This document shows, piece by piece, positions 3,188 to 20,093 of a DNA stretch of 21,450 nucleotides. Under the pieces are notes generated by a model. That model saw only the letters and a program-made list of their open reading frames with translations, was not told the DNA's origin and searched no databases. Location of the stretch: positions 1-21,450 of IMG/VR virus record IMGVR_UViG_3300023179_003353; one strand, given 5' to 3'. A program made the position numbers and the translations under genes. Source of the stretch: a virus. Positions within the stretch are counted from its first letter, which is position 1. Each line of letters opens with the position of its first letter.

Positions 3188-3261
3188 GCACCAGTAGCCA
3201 AGCTGGTTAAGGCTCCGAACTCATAATTCGGTTATCGTAGGTTCAAGTCCTACCTGGTGTA
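3188..3261 (+). tRNA. tRNA with CAT anticodon (Met or Ile2)
   Basis: A complete cloverleaf reads by eye. The 7-bp acceptor is 3188-3194 with 3254-3260 (one G-T pair at the end). The D stem is GCC/GGC with GG in its loop, and the anticodon stem CCGAA/TTCGG frames loop CTCATAA, giving CAT at 3222-3224. The T arm is GTAGG-TTCAAGT-CCTAC, the discriminator is A3261, and no CCA is encoded. The anticodon stem lacks the three G-C pairs of an initiator. Elongator Met and Ile2 (lysidine-modified, reading AUA) cannot be told apart by eye; Ile2 would suit this AT-rich phage. Confidence 0.93.
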
Positions 3262-4357: not shown

Positions 4358-4430
4358 GCCTTTGTAGCTCAGGGGACAGAGCGGATGCCTTCTAAGCATT
4401 AGGTCGCAGGTTCGATTCCTGCCAAAGGCG
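4358..4430 (+). tRNA. tRNA-Arg(TCT)
   Basis: The acceptor GCCTTTG (4358-4364) pairs perfectly with CAAAGGC (4423-4429). The D stem is GCTC/GAGC, the anticodon stem GATGC/GCATT encloses loop CTTCTAA with TCT at 4391-4393, and the T arm is GCAGG-TTCGATT-CCTGC. The discriminator is G4430 and CCA is not encoded. It reads AGA, the Arg codon that dominates this window's genes. Confidence 0.95.
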
Positions 4431-4434
4431 CATT

Positions 4435-4506
4435 GCCTTCATAGCTCAGTGGTAGAGCAACGCACTTGTAATGCGTAGGTCGGGGGTTCAAATCCCTCTG
4501 GGGGCT
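4435..4506 (+). tRNA. tRNA-Thr(TGT)
   Basis: The acceptor GCCTTCA (4435-4441) pairs with TGGGGGC (4499-4505) through two T-G pairs. The D stem is GCTC/GAGC, the anticodon stem ACGCA/TGCGT holds loop CTTGTAA with TGT at 4467-4469, and the T arm is GGGGG-TTCAAAT-CCCTC. CCA is not encoded and the discriminator appears to be T4506. It lies 4 nt after tRNA-Arg, so both are probably cut from one transcript. It reads ACA. Confidence 0.93.
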
Positions 4507-6238: not shown

Positions 6239-6278
6239 TGCTATAATATATATGGGTCGCCTAACGGGACCCATATAT
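6239..6278 (+). promoter_or_regulatory. Extended -10 promoter with inverted repeat (hsp20)
   Basis: TGCTATAAT (6239-6247) is followed directly by a perfect 11-bp inverted repeat, 6248-6258 with 6268-6278, around a 9-nt loop (GCCTAACGG). Transcription should start near 6254, so the RNA would begin with a GGGTC/GACCC hairpin. The repeat may be a stabilising 5' stem-loop or an operator. An AAAGGAGG ribosome site (6293-6300) follows, outside the hairpin. Confidence 0.65.
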
Positions 6279-6306
6279 TAATTTATTCGCTTAAAGGAGG
6301 AATAAA

Positions 6307-6723
6307 ATGGTAACAACATTCGGCTTGGATCTTTTTAAGGATCCATTTTTTATTGGATTTAATCGAGAGCTAAACAGGTTAAATCATGTACATTCAACTA
6401 ATACTGGTGGATTTCCACCATATGATCTACTTAAATTAAATGACGATAATTATGTTCTCACATTAGCTGTAGCAGGATTTTCAAAAGAAAGCCTTGACAT
6501 TACAGTAGATCAAGGAACATTAATTATTAAGGGAAATCAAATAGAAATCGTTGATGCCGAAGTGCTACATAAAGGAATTGCTACTAGAAAGTTCACTAGA
6601 TCATTTGCTCTTGGAGAATACATGGAAGTAACAAATGCTGAACTTGCGGACGGAATGTTGAGCATTAAGATAACTCGTTTAATTCCAGAAGAAAAAAAAC
6701 CAAAAGCAATCACAATTAACTAA
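6307..6723 (+). CDS. Hsp20 small heat-shock protein
   Basis: 138 aa. The alpha-crystallin domain runs from about 39 to 128: PPYDLLKLNDDNYVLTLAVA, the conserved AGFSKESLDI, and ADGMLSIKITRL (the usual 'GxLxI'). The C-terminal AITI supplies the I-x-I tail motif that docks oligomers. Small heat-shock proteins hold unfolding proteins without ATP, and several tailed phages carry them, possibly to support virion assembly or host survival. The N-terminus (FGLDLFKDPFFIGFN) matches the IbpA/HspA class. It has its own promoter with a 5' hairpin and a strong AAAGGAGG, so strong expression is likely. Confidence 0.94.
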   Translation: MVTTFGLDLFKDPFFIGFNRELNRLNHVHSTNTGGFPPYDLLKLNDDNYVLTLAVAGFSKESLDITVDQGTLIIKGNQIEIVDAEVLHKGIATRKFTRSFALGEYMEVTNAELADGMLSIKITRLIPEEKKPKAITIN

Positions 6724-6975: not shown

Positions 6976-7016
6976 TGATATAATTTCAATGTTTTATAAA
7001 TAAGTTATAAAACATT
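6976..7016 (+). promoter_or_regulatory. Extended -10 promoter with 12-bp inverted repeat
   Basis: TGATATAAT (6976-6984) is followed after 3 nt by a perfect 12-bp inverted repeat, AATGTTTTATAA (6988-6999) and its complement (7005-7016), with a 5-nt loop. The expected start point (about 6991) lies inside the first arm, so this may be an operator or a 5' mRNA hairpin. GGGAGAAAG follows at once as the ribosome site. Confidence 0.6.
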
Positions 7017-7028
7017 GGGAGAAAGCGG

Positions 7029-9575
7029 TTGAGTAGGCTTCTTAGGATAGTTGCTGTAATTGGGGTGATCTTTGGGTCATCCTTTTTTGGTTTTCCAGAT
7101 TCAGCTGCAGCATTACCTACAAATGGTATCAACGCACAAATATATTATTGCCCACAATATGGAGCACAACCTCCCAGGCCATGTAATTCACAACCAGTAG
7201 CAACCACCACAGTCAATCAAATAAATTATAATTGGGGTGGAGGATCTGTTTTAGGAAGTTACGGAGATCGTGTAGAAGTAAAGTTTACTGGATACATAAT
7301 GTCTCCAACTACGGTAAATGCAACTTTTCAAGTAGGTGGAGATGATGGCCAATATTTAAACTTTAATAATACTAATATAATTACAAATTGTTGGTGGGAT
7401 AAAGGAGGCGGAAACTGTCAATCCCAACCAATAATTTTACAAGCAAATACTGCTTATCCATTTACATATTGGTTTTATGAAAATGGTGGCGGAGCCAACA
7501 CTTATTTTTGGTGGAATATAGGTTCTGGATTTCAAATAGTTCCTTCAAATGTTTTTTATTTAACTGAACCAACTCCACCACCATCATTAAATTCACCAAC
7601 ATCATTATCTGGAACAATACAACCAGATGGAATTAACTTATCTTGGGCAGCACCAACAGCAACAAATGCAAATACAGCAGTTGAAAGATATGCAGTTAGT
7701 TGGTCAACATCAAATTTTATAACAAACGGTTGGGGAATTGCAACTGGCAATGTTGGAAGTGAAACTGCATTAAATACTTCAATAACAATTCCATATGATG
7801 TAATATCAAATGATGGCAGAGGAAAAGAATACCAATTTAAAGTAAGAGCAGACAATGATACTTTATCTACCTATTCTCCTGATTCAAATATTATTACATT
7901 ATATGTACCTTTAGCACCTCCTACAATATCATTAACTGCTGGCAATAATTCAATACAGGTTTCTGCTTCACATCAAGATGCCAATACATGGTTTTATCAA
8001 GTTTTAACATCTCAGCAAGGATGTTCAAACCCTTATGATGGACAAACATTGAATACTGAGGGACATCCTTCAAGTTTTACAATTAATAATTTACAAAATG
8101 ATTGTTTGTATCAGATTAAAGTAGCAAACTGGACGGGACAAGTAAATCTATATGCTAGTGCCACTGCTACTCCAATATATACTCCTGCCCCGCTTCCATT
8201 TACTCCACAATATACAATTAATGAAAATGATACGCTAACAATTACTGCCTCAGAAAATAAAGTAATAGACTCAATAAATGCTTGGTATGGAGATCCAAAT
8301 GATGGAAATTTTGGATTAAATGTTTCATCACAATTAACTCAACAGTTTGCTAATGCTGCTAGTGCAAATCTATCTGCTACAAATACTGTTTTTGGAGACC
8401 CAGTTCCAGGAGTTGTAAAAGTTTTAATAGTTTCTATTACTTATAAAGATGCTCCACAACCAGAACCTACGCTAACACCTACCACTACACCCACACCTAC
8501 ACCAACCGTAACAACAACTCCAGAGCCTAGTCCTTCCCCGTCAAGCCCAGAACCCACGACCAGCCCTTCTCCACAGCCTTCTCCAGAGCCTTCTCCAGAG
8601 CCACAGACTCCTCCTCAGCCTCCTGTAGAACCTTCTCCACCATCTCCCCAACCACCTACTCCAGAACCTCCCCCTGTCCGTCCCCCAGATCCAGTTGTAG
8701 TTCCTCCAGTTGTTGAACCAACTCCTGAGCCAGACCCTCAGCCTGAGCCAGAGCCTGAAGTTCCTGTTGAACCAGAACAACCAATTGATCAAAATCCAAT
8801 TGATACACCTGATTCCCAAGACGATACTGAATTAGATCCAGTAGTTGTTCCAGAAGATCCAACTCCGACTGAAGACCAACCTCCTGTGCAAGAAGATCCC
8901 GTTCAAGATAATACAGAGACTCAAGATCCTCAAGAGACCATGGTTGATTCTCAAATTCAGGATGATTCAAAAAATACCTCCGACAACATTACAAGTATAT
9001 CAGAAGATTTAAATTTATCTAATGATGAAAAAAAACAGTTAAATGATGTTGTTAAAGATGCAGATTTATCAGAGGAACAAATAAAAGAAATAGCAAAAGT
9101 AATTTCAGACTCTGGATTGTCTAAAGAACAGGTGCAAGGACTTGTTGATGTTATTGAAAATGCAGATTTATCTAAACAAGAAATTAAACAATTAGCTGAA
9201 TTAGTTAAAAATGATCCAGTAATTGCACAAGCAGTTGAACAATTTAATGAAAGAGCAGCAGAAAATGCAAATGCTCCAATGCCTTATACACTTGCTGATG
9301 CAGCAACAGAGGTTCAAGCAGAACAAATTATTGATGGAGTTACAGAGGCATTTACGGATCCAGGAGCAGCAGCTGCAGCCGTTGGAGAAAGTTTACAAAA
9401 ATTAGCAGCATTTACATCAGATTTATTATCTAATCCAGGTGAAGCATTGGCAAGTTTGGGTTCAGATATGACGGACGATCAAAGAGAAAAAGTTCAAGAA
9501 GTTATTATTCCAGTAATTATTGTTTCTCAAGTCATGAATGCTGTTGCAAATATTTTATCAGCGAGGAGGATCTAA
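7029..9575 (+). CDS. Large secreted PA14/FnIII/Pro-rich repeat protein
   Basis: 848 aa with TTG start, supported by GGGAGAAAG 4 nt upstream and a signal peptide directly after (basic SRLLR, hydrophobic 7-22, likely cut after SAAA). Domains: a PA14-like beta module (about 30-178; GGDDGQYLNFN, ANTYFWWN, Cys at 41, 52, 121, 130), an FnIII-like domain (about 183-295; INLSWAAPT), a second beta domain with two Cys (about 296-385) and one more (about 386-473). Then comes a Pro/Glu/Thr linker (about 474-637), four tandem 17-aa repeats built on xxLSxxxxxxLxxVI (about 660-728), an Ala-rich helical part, and a hydrophobic end (IIPVIIVSQV...ANIL) before SARRI. PA14 modules often bind carbohydrate. It could be a surface adhesin, an exclusion factor or a virion fibre; the signal peptide favours cell-surface display. 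No LPxTG motif is seen. Confidence 0.85.
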   Translation: MSRLLRIVAVIGVIFGSSFFGFPDSAAALPTNGINAQIYYCPQYGAQPPRPCNSQPVATTTVNQINYNWGGGSVLGSYGDRVEVKFTGYIMSPTTVNATFQVGGDDGQYLNFNNTNIITNCWWDKGGGNCQSQPIILQANTAYPFTYWFYENGGGANTYFWWNIGSGFQIVPSNVFYLTEPTPPPSLNSPTSLSGTIQPDGINLSWAAPTATNANTAVERYAVSWSTSNFITNGWGIATGNVGSETALNTSITIPYDVISNDGRGKEYQFKVRADNDTLSTYSPDSNIITLYVPLAPPTISLTAGNNSIQVSASHQDANTWFYQVLTSQQGCSNPYDGQTLNTEGHPSSFTINNLQNDCLYQIKVANWTGQVNLYASATATPIYTPAPLPFTPQYTINENDTLTITASENKVIDSINAWYGDPNDGNFGLNVSSQLTQQFANAASANLSATNTVFGDPVPGVVKVLIVSITYKDAPQPEPTLTPTTTPTPTPTVTTTPEPSPSPSSPEPTTSPSPQPSPEPSPEPQTPPQPPVEPSPPSPQPPTPEPPPVRPPDPVVVPPVVEPTPEPDPQPEPEPEVPVEPEQPIDQNPIDTPDSQDDTELDPVVVPEDPTPTEDQPPVQEDPVQDNTETQDPQETMVDSQIQDDSKNTSDNITSISEDLNLSNDEKKQLNDVVKDADLSEEQIKEIAKVISDSGLSKEQVQGLVDVIENADLSKQEIKQLAELVKNDPVIAQAVEQFNERAAENANAPMPYTLADAATEVQAEQIIDGVTEAFTDPGAAAAAVGESLQKLAAFTSDLLSNPGEALASLGSDMTDDQREKVQEVIIPVIIVSQVMNAVANILSARRI
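8454..8940 (+). repeat. Low-complexity Pro/Glu/Thr-coding tract
   Basis: Irregular short direct repeats (CCAGAGCCTTCTCC-type units) encode PEPSPEP/PTPTP stretches inside the 848-aa gene. The tract is C-rich and T-poor compared with its neighbours, and creates open but meaningless frames on the opposite strand. It encodes an extended stalk or wall-spanning linker and is likely to vary in length between strains. Confidence 0.8.
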
Positions 9576-11200: not shown

Positions 11201-11273
11201 TGGCCCATAGCTCAATAGGCAGAGCGGTGAGCTGTTAACTCATAGGTTCCTGGTTCGAGTCCAGGTGGGCCAG
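11201..11273 (+). tRNA. tRNA-Asn(GTT)
   Basis: The acceptor TGGCCCA (11201-11207) pairs perfectly with TGGGCCA (11266-11272). The D stem is GCTC/GAGC, the anticodon stem GTGAG/CTCAT holds loop CTGTTAA with GTT at 11234-11236, and the T arm is CCTGG-TTCGAGT-CCAGG. The discriminator is G11273; CCA is not encoded. Confidence 0.95.
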
Positions 11274-12894: not shown

Positions 12895-13452
12895 ATGACC
12901 TGTATAGTAGCCATTGCCCAAAATGGGGTTGTTCATATGGCAGCCGATCATGCTGCATCAGATGATAAAAGTGGTTGGATTTTAGTAAGAAAAGATCCTA
13001 AAGTTTTCAAAGTTGGTCAGTACGGTATTGCGTTTACAGATAGTTTTCGTATGGGACAAATTCTTCAATACAATTGGATACCACCAAAATATACTCCAAC
13101 AAAAACAAATGCTGGCTTGGATAAGTTTATGAGAACAAAGTTTATTGATTCAGTAAAAGAAGCTTTTAGAGAAAATGGATATGGTAATTTTTCTCCTGGA
13201 GACGAGGGGGATACTGGTGGAATCTTTATGATAGGTGTAGAAGGAAGAATTTTTACTGTTGATGAGGATTTCCATGTTGCAGAAAATGTTGTAAATTATA
13301 TGGCTGAAGGTAGTGGCGGTATGTTTGCACTTGGTGCGTTATATGCAACAAAAAATATTAAAAATCCAAAAACACGCTTAAAATTAGCTTTAGAGGCGGC
13401 CTCAGAGTTTTCCATGAGCGTTTCAGCCCCATTTACATATATTCAAGTTTAG
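12895..13452 (+). CDS. HslV/proteasome-like Ntn hydrolase
   Basis: 185 aa. After removal of Met the chain begins TCIVAIAQNG, with Thr1 as nucleophile as in HslV and proteasome beta subunits. Counting from that Thr, D17 lies in HMAADHAA, exactly where the catalytic Asp belongs, and a Lys in RKDPKVFKVG (K35, two residues beyond the usual K33) follows. The later EGSGGMFALGALYA matches the conserved SGG...A.GA helix start. Such peptidases form rings and normally need an ATPase (HslU, Mpa). No ATPase is in the window, so it may use a host partner, act alone, or process phage proteins. Unlike actinobacterial PrcB it has no propeptide: Thr is residue 2. Leaderless-type promoter. Confidence 0.85.
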   Translation: MTCIVAIAQNGVVHMAADHAASDDKSGWILVRKDPKVFKVGQYGIAFTDSFRMGQILQYNWIPPKYTPTKTNAGLDKFMRTKFIDSVKEAFRENGYGNFSPGDEGDTGGIFMIGVEGRIFTVDEDFHVAENVVNYMAEGSGGMFALGALYATKNIKNPKTRLKLALEAASEFSMSVSAPFTYIQV

Positions 13453-13994: not shown

Positions 13995-14927
13995 ATGAAT
14001 AAAAAAATAATTATGGCGGTAGTATTTTTATTATCAATTTTTCCCACAACATCAATCGCAGCAGTAAAAACTCAAGATGCGATTGTGCAACCAACTTTGG
14101 CTATTTTGGATACAGCATTAGATACATCACTTCCAATTTTTAATGATAAAATTGCTTACGAAGTTTGTATTTTAGAGTGGAATAGTTGTCCAAATGGTAA
14201 AAATTTTATGGAAGGGACTGGATCTGCAGTTCTCCCCTTAAGCATTATGTCTACTAGAGACTTTAATCATGGAACTCAGATGGCTTCAATTGCAGTGGCA
14301 GCTAATCCAAATATGAAAATTGTTTTTATTAGAATTATTGGCAATACTCCATCTGGAGGAAGACAATTAACTGGTCCAAGGTCTGTGGAAAATGCTTTAA
14401 AGTGGGTTACAGACAATCAAATAAGATATAACATCCAGGCAGTTGCTATGTCGCAGGGACACCATAACCTTTTGCCTAAGTCAGAATATTGCCCAATGAG
14501 CTCTAAAGTTCAAGATAATTTAAAAACGCTACTTGCAATGAATGTTCCATTTTTTACTGCAACTGGAAATATTAGAGACTATAAACAAATAGATTGGCCA
14601 GCATGCTTGCCAGAAGCAATTGCTATAGCAGCAACAGATCAGCAAAACGAAATAGCAATGTATAGCAATGTAGACCCAAACTTAACTGATTTTTTTGCCC
14701 TTGGAAACACGACAGCGTTTGTTCCAGGTGGTGCCAAGGTTAATGCTGCTGGTACTTCTGCATCTGCACAGATAGCAGCAGCGCAATGGATTCAAATTAA
14801 ATCTAGTAAACCTAGCCTTTCTTATCAACAACAATATGATTTAATGAAAGGTACTTCAATTAGCACCAGGGGTCGGCAGGGAACGTTTAAGGCCCTCATT
14901 AATCTTCAGGGAGCCCTAAGTGCCTAA
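13995..14927 (+). CDS. Secreted subtilisin-like serine protease
   Basis: 310 aa. A signal peptide (KK, hydrophobic 5-15, likely cut after SIAA near 23) leads into an S8 peptidase domain: D39 in LAILDTALD, H92 in FNHGTQMASI, oxyanion Asn N192 in TATGN, and S255 in AAGTSASAQIAAA. The four positions are in the right order and context, so the enzyme should be active. It would be exported across the host membrane. There is no long prodomain between signal and catalytic Asp, unlike most secreted subtilases. C58, C65, C166 and C204 may form disulfides. Possible jobs: processing surface proteins, blocking superinfection, or nutrient release; none is shown by the sequence. Consensus leaderless promoter. 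Confidence 0.9.
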   Translation: MNKKIIMAVVFLLSIFPTTSIAAVKTQDAIVQPTLAILDTALDTSLPIFNDKIAYEVCILEWNSCPNGKNFMEGTGSAVLPLSIMSTRDFNHGTQMASIAVAANPNMKIVFIRIIGNTPSGGRQLTGPRSVENALKWVTDNQIRYNIQAVAMSQGHHNLLPKSEYCPMSSKVQDNLKTLLAMNVPFFTATGNIRDYKQIDWPACLPEAIAIAATDQQNEIAMYSNVDPNLTDFFALGNTTAFVPGGAKVNAAGTSASAQIAAAQWIQIKSSKPSLSYQQQYDLMKGTSISTRGRQGTFKALINLQGALSA

Positions 14928-15129
14928 TTTAACCGTACTAGAAGAGATTATTAAAGAGGTTGCAATAGAGTTGTATCAGAAGTGGTATAACTCTATTCCG
15001 CCCGAAGAAAGAACTGAAGAATCTTCTAAAGCTATGTCTAATAATGCTAACGAGACAACCCTATTCGTAATTCAAAATTTTATGAATAAGTTTAATGCTG
15101 CTGCTGAGGAACTAAAACAAAATGATTGA
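14920..15129 (+). CDS. Small helical protein (69 aa)
   Basis: GTG start with GGGAG 6 nt upstream, overlapping the subtilase by 8 nt. It is helical and acidic (VLEEIIKEVAIELYQKWYNS, NFMNKFNAAAEELKQ), with no membrane segment or Cys. Not recognised. Coupled to the protease upstream and overlapping the oxygenase downstream by 8 nt. Confidence 0.65.
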   Translation: MPNLTVLEEIIKEVAIELYQKWYNSIPPEERTEESSKAMSNNANETTLFVIQNFMNKFNAAAEELKQND

Positions 15130-15697
15130 TTTGGGTGGATCTCCTGACAATATAATTATTTATGAAAATTTATTAAATCAGGAAGAGCTAGATCAATTAA
15201 TGAATTTTGTAAAACAAGCAGATTTTGATTACCAGGGTTCTGGAGAAAAAACTCCAGAAGAAATAGAGTTAGAAAAATATATTTATAAACAGTATCAAAA
15301 AGATCTTCCAGAAGAAATAAATTTGATTCTGTTAAAACTTTTTACAAAAGCAAAAAATAATTTTGAAAATAAATACGGCATTAAAATTGAACATAGGGTT
15401 GAAGAAAGCGGTCAGTCTATGTTTTTAAATAAGTGGAAAAAAAATATTTCTATGAATGCACACTATGATGAAGAAATCATGAATGATTTTAATGTTTCAA
15501 TTATATATTATTTAAATGATGATTATCAAGGAGGGGAATTGCATTTTCCACAACATAATTTAAAAATAAAGCCAAAAGCAAACAGTGCTGTTTTGTTTCC
15601 AGGAAATAAAAATTATTACCACGAGGTGCTTGAAGTTTTTGGCTCCGACAGGTATACTTCTAGTGCATGGTTCAAATTCTTAGAGGAAGGAAATTAA
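15122..15697 (+). CDS. 2OG-Fe(II) oxygenase, prolyl 4-hydroxylase-like
   Basis: 191 aa. Beta-helix core with H114-Y-D116 (MNAHYDEE), strand-turn YQGGELHFP (135-143), the PKANSAVLFPG segment (151-161), second metal His H167 in YYHEV, and R177 (SDRYTSSAW) for 2-oxoglutarate. The complete triad implies an active enzyme of the P4Hc type. The N-terminal half is helical, like other phage P4H-like proteins. It overlaps both neighbours, with GAGGA 11 nt before the ATG. Substrate unknown. Confidence 0.9.
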   Translation: MIDLGGSPDNIIIYENLLNQEELDQLMNFVKQADFDYQGSGEKTPEEIELEKYIYKQYQKDLPEEINLILLKLFTKAKNNFENKYGIKIEHRVEESGQSMFLNKWKKNISMNAHYDEEIMNDFNVSIIYYLNDDYQGGELHFPQHNLKIKPKANSAVLFPGNKNYYHEVLEVFGSDRYTSSAWFKFLEEGN

Positions 15698-16167
15698 TGC
15701 AAACATTTTTACCAGAATCAAATTTTGATTTAATTGCAGAAAGTTTAGATTCAAAACGTTTGATGAAACAAAGAATTGAAAACTTTCAAATATTAAAGTC
15801 TTTGGCAGGACTTTATGAGTCTGGAGCCTGGTCTAATCATCCTGCTGTTAGAATGTGGGACGGTCACGAAGACTGGTTGCTGCTTTACAATGAATCCATT
15901 ATTAAAGAAGTTATTAAAAGAGGTTACAAAGATAACACCAGGGATCAGTTCTTGCAAGTGTATTGGGATAATTTTTGGGGAGTAGAGTCAGACAAGCCGT
16001 GGTGGCTCGATTCAGAACAACTACATTATAGTCATAAAGGTAGACTATACGAAAAGGATCCAGAGCATTACTGGTTCTACGTAGAGTTTGCTGATTATCG
16101 TAGTTTAGGATACACATGCTGTGAAAATTGTAACTATTTTTGGCCTACACATATGGAGAAAAAATGA
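15697..16167 (+). CDS. Pyrimidine-dimer DNA glycosylase-like protein
   Basis: 156 aa from ATG 15697, preferred because GAGGAAGG sits just upstream and the family begins MQTFLP. Conserved family features: LDSKRLMKQRIENFQIL (24-40 region), SNHPAVRMWDGHEDWLLLYN, SIIKEVIKRGYKDN, and HYSHKGRLYEKDPEHYWFY. This matches the MSMEG_6728/pyrimidine dimer DNA glycosylase group, small proteins related to T4 endonuclease V that cut at UV-induced dimers. In a sunlit freshwater phage a UV-repair enzyme makes sense. A Cys pair near the end (CENC) is an addition. Activity is inferred from similarity only. Confidence 0.82.
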   Translation: MQTFLPESNFDLIAESLDSKRLMKQRIENFQILKSLAGLYESGAWSNHPAVRMWDGHEDWLLLYNESIIKEVIKRGYKDNTRDQFLQVYWDNFWGVESDKPWWLDSEQLHYSHKGRLYEKDPEHYWFYVEFADYRSLGYTCCENCNYFWPTHMEKK

Positions 16168-16864: not shown

Positions 16865-17443
16865 ATGATTAATATTATAGAAAATTATTTAAACTCAAGT
16901 ACATGTTCTTTTTTAACAACAACATTTAATAAGTATACACATGAAATACCAGACCCTGGAATTTATGGTGGAATATCTAAATCTGAATTTTGTGAAAATA
17001 TTAAATTAGGTTTTCCAATTACAGAATATACAGAAGATCCAAACTATAATATTTGTGTAGACATAACTACTATGCTTTGCACATCTATGTCTAAAACAAT
17101 TTCAGATAAATACGACCAAGAATATGTCTTAAGAAGTATTTTTTATAGTGACATGCAGGAGGGCGGAGAAAACAAACTTCATGTGGATAATTTTTACATG
17201 GATTTAAATTCTAATGAAATGGTTGCACGTCCTGGCATGGAAAAGGATATAGCTGGATTACTATATTTAAATGAAGAATATGAAGGTGGGGAACTTAATT
17301 TTCCCTCCCAACAATTTGAAATTAAACCTAGTCCAGGATCGTTTGTATTTTTTGAAGGTAGCTTAGATTTACCGCATGAGGTAAAAAAAGTCGTTTCTGG
17401 TAGAAGAAACAACCTAATTTGCTTTTTTACGCCTAAAAAATAA
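16865..17443 (+). CDS. 2OG-Fe(II) oxygenase, prolyl 4-hydroxylase-like
   Basis: 192 aa. Metal ligands H106-V-D108 (KLHVDNF), strand-turn YEGGELNFP (139-147), KPSPGSFVFFEG (154-165), second His H171 in LPHEV, and Arg at 180/181 near the end. The insertion between H106 and the EGGEL strand is longer than in the other two full copies. It follows DUF2061 by 14 nt with no visible Shine-Dalgarno. Complete triad, so probably active; substrate unknown. Confidence 0.9.
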   Translation: MINIIENYLNSSTCSFLTTTFNKYTHEIPDPGIYGGISKSEFCENIKLGFPITEYTEDPNYNICVDITTMLCTSMSKTISDKYDQEYVLRSIFYSDMQEGGENKLHVDNFYMDLNSNEMVARPGMEKDIAGLLYLNEEYEGGELNFPSQQFEIKPSPGSFVFFEGSLDLPHEVKKVVSGRRNNLICFFTPKK

Positions 17444-17466: not shown

Positions 17467-17506
17467 TGGTACAATGTATTGATAAGCGGACTTCTAGACC
17501 CGCTTA
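17467..17506 (+). promoter_or_regulatory. Extended -10 promoter with 5' stem-loop
   Basis: TGGTACAAT (17467-17475) is followed by a perfect 7-bp inverted repeat TAAGCGG (17483-17489) and CCGCTTA (17500-17506) with a 10-nt loop. The predicted start point (about 17482) places the hairpin at the very 5' end of the RNA. TAGGAGAT then gives the ribosome site for 17530. Confidence 0.6.
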
Positions 17507-17529
17507 AATATAACCTATAGGAGATAAAT

Positions 17530-17748
17530 ATGTCAATTTCAAACGGAATTGCAGGAGGCGGATTTGAAGCTGCCAAACCAGCAGGAAAGAATAATGTTCC
17601 ACCTCAGCAATATGCTGCTGCACCAAATAAGAATTTTTCAGCAAAAGATATGTCCACTCAAGGAAATGCAGGATTTAATGCAGAAGGTTCTTATGAGATG
17701 GGTAATCGTGCAGAAACAAATGCTTATCCAGAATCAGAGAATATGTAA
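17530..17748 (+). CDS. Disordered low-complexity protein 1 (72 aa)
   Basis: Rich in Gly, Ala, Asn and Pro (ISNGIAGGGFEAAKPAGKNN, VPPQQYAAAP) and nearly free of large hydrophobics, so probably unfolded alone. The centre PNKNFSAKDMSTQGNAGF is repeated in the next gene as PSKAFPSKDVSSQGQAGI, suggesting duplication and a conserved binding motif. Good ribosome site (TAGGAG). First gene of a unit closed by a terminator at 18399. Not recognised; a virion decoration or binding peptide would fit. Confidence 0.75.
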   Translation: MSISNGIAGGGFEAAKPAGKNNVPPQQYAAAPNKNFSAKDMSTQGNAGFNAEGSYEMGNRAETNAYPESENM

Positions 17749-17900
17749 TGACAACAAATAACGTGCCTAATGTAAATTATACAGAAGCACCTTCAAAAGC
17801 TTTTCCGTCAAAGGATGTTTCCTCTCAGGGGCAAGCTGGTATTACAGATAAAATGGTACACACCATAGAAGAAACTAAAAACTTTGGGGCAGGTAACTAA
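17748..17900 (+). CDS. Disordered low-complexity protein 2 (50 aa)
   Basis: Coupled to protein 1 by TAATG, with no strong ribosome site. It shares P-x-K-x-F-x-x-K-D-x-S-x-Q-G-x-A-G with protein 1 and then has its own helical end (ITDKMVHTIEETKNFGAGN). Unknown family; paralogy with its neighbour is the main evidence that it is a real gene. Confidence 0.68.
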   Translation: MTTNNVPNVNYTEAPSKAFPSKDVSSQGQAGITDKMVHTIEETKNFGAGN

Positions 17901-17901
17901 A

Positions 17902-18000
17902 ATGTGTGCAATGTGTGGATGCAATAGTGAGGATTTTATGGGAATGCCATTAAAAGATCCAAATACCATGTCACTTGAATCCGAAAAGGAGAACATGTAA
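17902..18000 (+). CDS. 32-aa Cys-rich peptide
   Basis: MCAMCGCNSEDFMGMPLKDP ends SEKENM. C2, C5 and C7 sit together and could bind a metal. The start is 2 nt after the preceding stop, and its last codons hold the next gene's AAGGAG. Its stop overlaps the next ATG. Short, so support comes from the fully coupled arrangement. Confidence 0.55.
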   Translation: MCAMCGCNSEDFMGMPLKDPNTMSLESEKENM

Positions 18001-18179
18001 TGATACAAAATATTAATGGAGAACCACAAGTTATTCGCTCTGGCGGAATGTTTGCAACTGATTCGTTAAATCCATTGGGATCCAATGCAGCTTATCAAGG
18101 CTTAAATCTTGAAATAACTGAAATGGAATCTGAGTTAGAATCTAAGTTGGAAAACCCACTTAATGCAGAGGAAAACTAA
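18000..18179 (+). CDS. Small acidic protein (59 aa)
   Basis: Starts in TAATG overlap with AAGGAG about 9 nt upstream. The first half is polar and Gly/Asn-rich (SGGMFATDSLNPLGSNAAYQ); the second is an acidic helix (ITEMESELESKLENPLN). Not recognised. Same unit as the three tiny proteins before it. Confidence 0.65.
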   Translation: MIQNINGEPQVIRSGGMFATDSLNPLGSNAAYQGLNLEITEMESELESKLENPLNAEEN

Positions 18180-18182
18180 TTA

Positions 18183-18386
18183 ATGAAAGATGAATTAAAA
18201 AAGGATGATGGAACTGGAATGGTTCCTCCTCCAAATTCAGCTCCAGCTGGAGCAGTAACGAGCCGAGAGGCTACAAGAAAGAATCCTAGACAAGGATTAG
18301 TAATAGATAGAAATAGACACGGTATTCGACGAGAAAGATCTGTAGGAAACGTGCAACCTAAAAAAACTGGAAGAAAAAAAGTTTAA
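18183..18386 (+). CDS. Small basic disordered protein (67 aa)
   Basis: GAGGA precedes ATG 18183 by about 10 nt. Acidic/Lys N-terminus, Pro-rich middle (GMVPPPNSAPAGAVTSREAT), then a strongly basic Arg/Lys end (DRNRHGIRRERS, KKTGRKKV). It could bind DNA, RNA or an acidic protein such as its neighbour. Last gene before the terminator. Not recognised. Confidence 0.68.
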   Translation: MKDELKKDDGTGMVPPPNSAPAGAVTSREATRKNPRQGLVIDRNRHGIRRERSVGNVQPKKTGRKKV

Positions 18387-18398
18387 ATTATAAAACAG

Positions 18399-18424
18399 AA
18401 TAGCCTGCAATGCAGGCTATTTTT
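18399..18424 (+). terminator. Rho-independent terminator
   Basis: A perfect 10-bp stem AATAGCCTGC (18399-18408) and GCAGGCTATT (18412-18421), 3-nt loop, then a run of T. It ends the tiny-protein unit and isolates the AhpC promoter that begins 8 nt later. Confidence 0.92.
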
Positions 18425-18484: not shown

Positions 18485-19021
18485 ATGAAAACTATTGGAA
18501 ATAAAATTGGTAATTTTGCCGTGACTGGTGTAAAGCCAGGAGCATTAACATACGATGACTCGTCCTTTGAGACCATTACGCAAGACTCTTTTCCAGGAAA
18601 ATGGAAAATTGTTGTCTTTTATCCAAAAGATTTTACGTTCGTATGCCCAACAGAAATTGTTGCTTATGATAAATTAGTAAATGATTTTAATGATAGAGAT
18701 GCAGTGTTAATGACTGGTTCCGTAGATAATGAATTTTGTAAAGTTGCGTGGAGAAATGCACACGACGATCTACGCAAGACTAATTCATGGTCTTTTGCTG
18801 ATACAGCACATCAGTTAGCAAATGATCTTGGCATACATCATTCATCTGGGGTAACATATAGAGCAACTTTTATTATTGATCCAGATAATATTATTCAACA
18901 CGTTACATGTAATAATTTAGATGTTGGACGCAATGCTGACGAGACCCTTAGAATTCTAGATGCTCTTCAAACTGGTGAACTTTGTGCATGTAATAGACCA
19001 CTCGGAGGGGAAACTCTATAG
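18485..19021 (+). CDS. ahpC: Peroxiredoxin AhpC
   Basis: 178 aa from ATG 18485, chosen because AGAAAGAGA lies just upstream and the family begins about here; in-frame codons further upstream lie in the promoter. The peroxidatic site P47-KDF-T51-FV-C54-PTEI and R126 (YRATF) are intact; the resolving Cys is C167 or C169 in GELCACNRP. 2-Cys peroxiredoxins of this type reduce H2O2, organic peroxides and peroxynitrite. It has a consensus promoter and is followed directly by AhpD, which in mycobacteria recycles AhpC. The pair would be unusual in a phage. Confidence 0.95.
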   Translation: MKTIGNKIGNFAVTGVKPGALTYDDSSFETITQDSFPGKWKIVVFYPKDFTFVCPTEIVAYDKLVNDFNDRDAVLMTGSVDNEFCKVAWRNAHDDLRKTNSWSFADTAHQLANDLGIHHSSGVTYRATFIIDPDNIIQHVTCNNLDVGRNADETLRILDALQTGELCACNRPLGGETL

Positions 19022-19530
19022 TGTGGGTAGATCAGTTAAAAGATGCAATTCCAGATTATGCTAAGGATATTAAGTTAAATTTAGATGCTGTTATAAATAG
19101 ATCAACAATTGATCCAGAGCATGCTAAGTACCTAGCTATTTCAGCAGCATTTGCAACTGGCAACTCAAAACTATTAACATTTATTTTAGCTGAAGCTTCT
19201 GATACTACAGAAAGAGATGCTGCATTAACAGCAGCTTCTTTGATGGCTCAAAACAATGTTTGGTATCCATACATTGAGATGGCTGACGATAAGGACCTAA
19301 AAGGGCTTCCAGCACAGCTAAGAATGAATGCAATAGCAAATCATGGCGGAACCACAAAGGCAAAGTTCGAAGCGTATTCTTTGATTTCTTCTATTATTGG
19401 AAAATGTCATTTTTGTGTAAAGGCACATTATGAAACACTAAAGACAGAAGGATATTCAGTAGAGCAACTAAGAGATATTGGTAGGATAGCAGCAACTATC
19501 AATGCCATTTCAAAGATATTGAATAGTTAA
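19021..19530 (+). CDS. ahpD: Alkylhydroperoxidase AhpD
   Basis: 169 aa. GTG start overlaps the AhpC stop (TAGTG). The active site is C129-HF-C132 with H136 three residues on, and E118 upstream, the same four residues and spacing as in mycobacterial AhpD (E118, C130, C133, H137). AhpD is an all-helical trimer that passes electrons from a lipoyl protein to AhpC. In the host the donor is dihydrolipoamide succinyltransferase; here the host would have to supply it. The full catalytic set implies function. GGAGGGG just before the start supports GTG 19021. Confidence 0.93.
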   Translation: MWVDQLKDAIPDYAKDIKLNLDAVINRSTIDPEHAKYLAISAAFATGNSKLLTFILAEASDTTERDAALTAASLMAQNNVWYPYIEMADDKDLKGLPAQLRMNAIANHGGTTKAKFEAYSLISSIIGKCHFCVKAHYETLKTEGYSVEQLRDIGRIAATINAISKILNS

Positions 19531-19532
19531 AT

Positions 19533-20093
19533 ATGAAAGATATACCCAGGATTATTTTTGATAAAAATACTATTGAAATTAATCCTGGTATATACTTAAA
19601 CAAAAACTTTTTTGATTTAAGTATAGCCGATAAATATGTTCGCATTTTACAATCACATAATGAACAAGAGTGGCACCAGCACGAAAACATTGAATCTGGT
19701 GACATAGACGGAACCTTTTGGGAAGATAAATGCGGGGCTGATATTATTAATACATTGGATATACACGATCCTCTGTTAGACGTATTAGCCCCGTCCCATT
19801 GGACATATCAACATATTAATTTTATAAGATTAAGAGCTGGTCAAAGATCTGAAATAAATTTACATCAATCAGCCATATTTGCAGAATATAAGATAGCTTG
19901 GTATCTTGGAAATTTTAAGGGTGGCGAAATAGTTTTTCCAAATTTAAATTTTAAATATCAACCAGAACACAATGATCTTTTAATATTTAAAATAAATTCT
20001 GATACCCATCATTATACTGACATAGTTACTTCGGGAACTAGATACGCATATATGGATTATATAATTCCTCATCCAGGATATTTTATGCCATGA
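19533..20093 (+). CDS. Variant 2OG-Fe(II)-like oxygenase (HxD changed to HxS)
   Basis: 186 aa, same layout as the other P4H-like proteins: FIRLRAGQRSE, strand-turn FKGGEIVFP (128-136), EHNDLLIF (145-152), late His (H159/H160) and R170 in GTRYAYMDY. The place of HxD is taken by H111-Q-S113, so the Asp metal ligand is missing. In known Fe/2OG halogenases Asp is replaced by Ala or Gly and halide fills the site; Ser is unusual. It may be catalytically dead, use another ligand, or have altered chemistry. No Shine-Dalgarno is seen 5' of the ATG. It follows AhpD by 2 nt, so it may be cotranscribed with ahpC-ahpD. Confidence 0.8.
   Translation: MKDIPRIIFDKNTIEINPGIYLNKNFFDLSIADKYVRILQSHNEQEWHQHENIESGDIDGTFWEDKCGADIINTLDIHDPLLDVLAPSHWTYQHINFIRLRAGQRSEINLHQSAIFAEYKIAWYLGNFKGGEIVFPNLNFKYQPEHNDLLIFKINSDTHHYTDIVTSGTRYAYMDYIIPHPGYFMP

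Follow-up and report, generated by a model that had tools for sequence, protein, structure and literature searches.

A conserved leader and three families of tiny, probably disordered proteins in uncultured aquatic viruses assigned to actinobacterial hosts

Positions 17467-18424 of a 21,450-base virus record, the whole of which is referred to here as the window, hold five very short ORFs between a promoter and a terminator, and raise the question of whether such a run is a genuine functional unit and, if so, what its products do. A preliminary description had proposed a discrete, undescribed module built from a promoter with a 5′ stem-loop, five coupled ORFs and a terminator, and all of these elements are found at the following positions:

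17467..17475, plus strand: extended −10 promoter element TGGTACAAT (clade consensus TGCTATAAT), with T1, G2, T4, A5, A7, A8 and T9 invariant across 64 distinct leaders
17483..17506, plus strand: 5′-terminal hairpin of the leader, 7 bp, with stem TAAGCGG/CCGCTTA and loop ACTTCTAGAC containing a conserved CTAG, identified by folding and covariation
17514..17523, plus strand: CCTATAGGAG element, which contains the Shine-Dalgarno sequence and does not vary among the 64 aligned leaders
17530..17748, plus strand: ORF1, family A, 72 aa, with head SNGIAGGGF, core NFSAKDMSTQG and tail class NAEGSYxMGNRxETNAYPESENM
17748..17900, plus strand: ORF2, diverged family A duplicate, 50 aa, with tail KMVHTxEETxNFGAG, E 1.5e-6 to ORF1
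17902..18000, plus strand: ORF3, N-terminal half of family B, 32 aa, beginning MCAMCGC
18000..18179, plus strand: ORF4, acidic, 59 aa, matching long B proteins over their C-terminal half (MFxTDSxxxLG)
18183..18386, plus strand: ORF5, family C, basic, 67 aa, with GTGMxPPN..SGAVTS...NxHGIRRE...KKxGRKKV
18397..18423, plus strand: intrinsic terminator with a 12-bp stem and a T-rich tail, read from the sequence

The hairpin begins at roughly the +1 position expected after the extended −10 element, and the five ORFs are coupled, neighbours either overlapping at TAATG or lying 1-3 nt apart. Comparison of their sequences with those of relatives shows that they represent three families, A (ORF1 and ORF2), B (ORF3 and ORF4) and C (ORF5), so that the earlier count of five proteins, right for the ORFs, comes from a duplication in A and a split in B. 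The duplicate, ORF2, is shorter than ORF1 and has diverged from it; it has counterparts in loci L006 and L008 and is recovered when the window is searched with ORF1. The motif that the two had been said to share is exact, but it is not theirs alone, as its core (DxSxxGxAG) also occurs in family B. The latter is usually a single gene (MCAMCGC...MFxTDSxxTLG), as in several relatives; it is split in the window and likewise in L048, the closest relative seen, and an equivalent of ORF4 stands as a separate gene in the window, L048 and L030/L031. At the relatives' loci, B and C usually overlap by 7 nt.

The composition of the products is also as first described, with one Cys-rich (ORF3, three Cys), one acidic (ORF4, pI 4.1) and one basic member (ORF5, pI 11.3). 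The further claim that these small proteins are mostly disordered agrees with the AlphaFold (AF2) models of ORF1 (pLDDT 61, pTM 0.15) and ORF5 (pLDDT 65, pTM 0.22), whose low confidence is what would be expected of A and C chains that are disordered on their own.

Relatives of the cassette are present in more than 200 IMG/VR contigs with the order of the genes conserved. A search with ORF1 returned 15 viral loci, and alignment-based searches extended this to 29 loci for A and to no fewer than 141 contigs for C and 261 for B. The A-B-C order is constant, with a detected A or B missing at some loci. Because contigs from different samples may derive from one phage, family members were counted as distinct sequences, giving 111 A, 107 B and 109 C proteins. 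An unrelated marker, the window gene at 15697-16167, was used to define a clade (marker identity ≥64%, ≥4.5 kb of downstream sequence), in which B and C occur in 53/53 testable contigs, all three families in 51/53 and B-C only in 2; six contigs at 41-44% marker identity have no cassette. Hence, the cassette is near-fixed in one aquatic clade and missing from more distant relatives. With A missing in 2/53 and B undetected at some loci, only C looks strictly required.

Median pairwise dN/dS values of 0.47 (A), 0.34 (B) and 0.19 (C), which are rough because dS is partly saturated, place all three families under purifying selection. The check for in-frame stops and lost conservation that the preliminary description had put forward against itself was run on the relatives and found the ORFs conserved. 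A chance arrangement is excluded by the identical gene order and leader in scores of independent contigs, and spurious ORFs by the purifying selection, the 107-111 distinct members per family and the 53/53 occurrence in the clade.

Beyond this clade, DNA and tblastn searches of the cultured phages in INPHARED gave nothing significant, and pattern-based scans of GTDB genomes found no homologue. The window terminase is ~63% identical to those of Streptomyces phages such as Gilson (Stanwilliamsviridae), in which A, B, C and the leader were not found. A WhiB-like protein in the window indicates an actinobacterial host, and the carriers would on this assignment form a large clade of uncultured aquatic viruses of Actinobacteria. 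Four tRNA genes are also present in the window (3188-3261, 4358-4430, 4435-4506 and 11201-11273).

Across the alignment of 64 distinct leaders, 99.2% of hairpin cells are paired, and 93 cells carry double changes against 30.8 in shuffles, with 0/500 shuffles reaching 93; shifting the pairing partners along the leader abolishes this signal. The loop-closing pair alternates between U-A and A-U (the latter in 12 sequences) around an invariant CUAG. In four divergent leaders, CCTATAGGAG is kept in two and altered in two. Scanning IMG/VR for the leader pattern, with no protein sequence used, yielded 118 loci; gene A lies behind the leader in 113/113 of those with enough downstream DNA, and the full A-B-C set is found in 99 loci with at least 700 bases available downstream. 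A covariance model places one strong copy, at the cassette, in 15/16 large contigs, and no Rfam family scores above its gathering threshold for the leader. These observations define the leader as a new conserved RNA element specific to the cassette. At the other end, terminator-like sites lie 3′ of C in 53/105 distinct loci versus 8/525 random windows.

Weaker matches to the leader model have only its general build, an extended −10 element with a 5′ hairpin, and precede a putative ssDNA-binding protein adjoining a DnaE-like polymerase gene in relatives and Hsp20 in the window. A generic late leader common to all genes was ruled out, as each contig has one strong copy and the weaker matches are of a looser promoter-plus-hairpin type. 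A T7-type promoter reading of CCTATAGGAG was dropped because the distance to the upstream elements varies. In the window, an extended −10 element runs directly into a long 5′ hairpin at 6239-6310, for Hsp20 (6307), and the same combination at 6976-7029 precedes a large proline-rich protein with a signal-like N-terminus (7029). The putative ssDNA-binding protein gene has its own 5′ hairpin leader in L244 (6752-7476) and L245-L250, with compensating changes (GACGG..CCGTC or GATGG..CCATC). In L313, which has no A, a promoter and hairpin (1400-1500) precede B and both the CTAG loop and CCTATAGG are altered, changes that may tie these two elements to gene A.

The most unusual feature of the cassette is the swapping of short segments between adjacent tiny genes. 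Family A combines a constant head (DGxNLxGF) and core (AFPAxDxSxQ) with at least six tail classes, and canonical B has DVTRDGEAGLT, which resembles the A core DVSSQGxAGLT. Hybrids join a B head to an A tail (L046), to an A core and tail (L031) or to a C end (L200), and in G010 two C halves are matched ~4.5 kb apart.

Immediately after the cassette come genes for an AhpC-like peroxiredoxin and a CMD/AhpD-like protein, both in the window (18485-19530) and in L048; the window also encodes a thioredoxin (16140) and a Dps-like protein (4556). At least four 2OG-Fe(II) oxygenase-like genes are spread over its 21 kb (556-1140, 15122-15697, 16865-17443 and 19533-20093), with the profile check covering the one directly upstream of the cassette (16865-17443). 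An HslV-like peptidase (12895-13452, PHROG 1040) and a protease with a signal-like N-terminus (13995-14927, PHROG 3677) both have counterparts in relatives. Most relatives also have a second conserved run of tiny genes upstream of the cassette (L103 8958-9604, L251 12332-12532), including a short LELPxxWKP protein, a protein with a Lys-rich histone-H1-like tail, a basic KKPGSMNKKKTGY peptide and a zinc-knuckle-like peptide; of this region, the window has only the DUF2061-like gene.

Database searches with the cassette proteins were almost entirely negative. Against Pfam and PHROGs, A, B and C gave no significant match (best phrog_30823, E 0.67, function unknown); PADLOC anti-phage defence profiles gave no match, and a PDB sequence search with the A and C profiles gave none. 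A Pup-like modifier was rejected, as there is no Pfam Pup hit and A proteins have C-terminal K, N, M or other residues in place of GGQ/GGE. With its unique conserved leader, downstream terminators, purifying selection and lack of a database family, the locus thus fits the discrete, undescribed module first proposed.

The sole family match is that of B to NCBIfam HypB_prefix_1/2 (NF053667/NF053668), at E 0.04-0.12 and far below the curated cut-offs (14.5 versus 30 bits and 14.2 versus 35 bits), with the scores resting on ~10-20 residues; ORF3 itself matches HypB_prefix_1 at E 0.073, also below cut-off. The motif concerned, MCxxCGC, forms the N-terminus of 105/107 distinct B proteins. Methionine aminopeptidase should cleave a Met that precedes Cys. 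B minus Met1 would present Cys2-x-x-Cys5-Gly-Cys7 together with the N-terminal amine, as in E. coli HypB, whose N-terminal metal-site chemistry is described in PMC7055735. By analogy, B probably uses this site to hold a thiophilic ion, either Ni, Zn or Cu(I).

The cassette is clearly a selected part of the infection programme. We tentatively prefer, as the best reading, a host-directed cytoplasmic set of disordered adaptor proteins. The main sigma factor of the host would read the cassette promoter without phage help, and the hairpin would shield the mRNA 5′ end. As 5′ structures stabilise mRNAs (PMC3997798), abundant expression is a natural inference for the cassette, and its dedicated transcription unit would yield large, roughly fixed amounts of A, B and C. 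Acting jointly in the host cytoplasm, the products would most likely redirect host machinery as adaptors that are disordered and carry motifs, with the basic C in contact with nucleic acid or with an acidic partner, for example ORF4/B, and the exchangeable A tail setting specificity. A host-directed role is favoured by the ordinary extended −10 promoter and by the location of the cassette in G009, where ~30 kb separates it from tail-like genes and the terminase region lies ~13 kb upstream. The other units of promoter-plus-hairpin build, which encode the putative ssDNA-binding protein and Hsp20, also speak for the preferred reading. The wider proposition, that leader-controlled, interacting disordered micro-proteins with recombined segments and one HypB-like metal clasp reprogramme actinobacterial cells as a new kind of infection module, is rather doubtful.

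The peptides could instead be virion-associated, decorating the capsid or packaged within it; the A tails, which vary, would be exposed or act as anchors. Small size, the apparently abundant expression, tails that vary behind a constant head and core, and late functions such as endolysin in the wider region would all suit this role. It is nevertheless unlikely, as the cassette is remote from tail-like genes in G009, no PHROG structural family was matched, 2/53 clade members do without A, and it is hard to see a structural role for the Cys-rich start of B.

Next comes metal or thiol handling, likewise unlikely, in which B would form the functional centre as a small buffer for metals or redox changes (through a HypB-like or CxC thiol site), with A and C as its partners in aiding infection under metal or oxidative stress. 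The near-universal MCxxCGC and the HypB_prefix match fit such a role, as do the AhpC, CMD/AhpD-like, thioredoxin and Dps-like proteins of the window and the retention of B and C without A at six loci. However, A and C are kept at some loci where B is not detected; among the closely read loci, the window and L048 are the only ones in which the cassette is followed by the AhpC and AhpD-like genes; and an unsystematic look noticed no hydrogenase, urease or Ni-SOD genes.

It is quite improbable that the leader is the main regulated part, with a protein or RNA binding the palindromic loop (TCTAGA or ACTAGT) and CCTATAGGAG to switch cassette translation, possibly by autoregulation. The invariance of CTAG and CCTATAGGAG in 64 leaders, the 12 sequences in which the loop-closing U-A becomes A-U, and the A-less L313, which keeps a hairpin without this loop and CCTATAGG, all speak for this reading, but no alternative structure masking the start site was found, and the proposal covers regulation while leaving the function of the proteins unexplained. 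Finally, RiPP-like exported or modified peptides, perhaps hydroxylated by neighbouring 2OG-Fe(II) oxygenases, are very improbable: the C-termini do vary, an oxygenase gene lies directly upstream in the window, and some relatives have oxygenase-like genes close to the cassette, but no leader-peptide, protease or transporter genes are linked to it and in many relatives no oxygenase adjoins it.

The cassette poses a testable question, the effect of tiny disordered phage proteins on a host, in a unit that is short, constant in order, selected and easily synthesised. It is near-universal in a widespread aquatic actinophage clade, yet its families and leader match nothing in the libraries searched. 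The MCxxCGC peptide could be assayed biochemically at once, and metagenomes can readily be screened for the cassette with the leader as marker.

Several known systems resemble parts of this locus. Gilson and its relatives in the Stanwilliamsviridae have, besides the ~63% identical terminase, a small terminase and several flanking genes in common with the window virus, but Gilson has no detected counterpart of the cassette. Like HypB, B has MCxxCGC at its extreme N-terminus, with three Cys and the N-terminal amine available; it differs in being short and without a GTPase domain (no Pfam hit) and in its sub-cut-off match, a comparison that supports saying that B may work like HypB, not that it is HypB. 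The stabilising 5′-terminal hairpins of abundant bacterial and phage mRNAs likewise coincide with or adjoin the likely +1 and stand shortly before the ribosome-binding site, whereas the cassette leader, which has no Rfam family, adds a conserved loop and CCTATAGGAG bound to one operon. Moron or ORFan cassettes such as the P22 pid locus (PMC8835761) also consist of small orphan genes in a separate transcription unit with a terminator. As in morons, the cassette appears to have its own promoter and terminator and is absent from relatives, namely Gilson and the six more distant contigs. Unlike morons, and with no sign of lysogeny-linked expression, it comprises three co-conserved families, near-fixed across a clade, behind a covarying leader.
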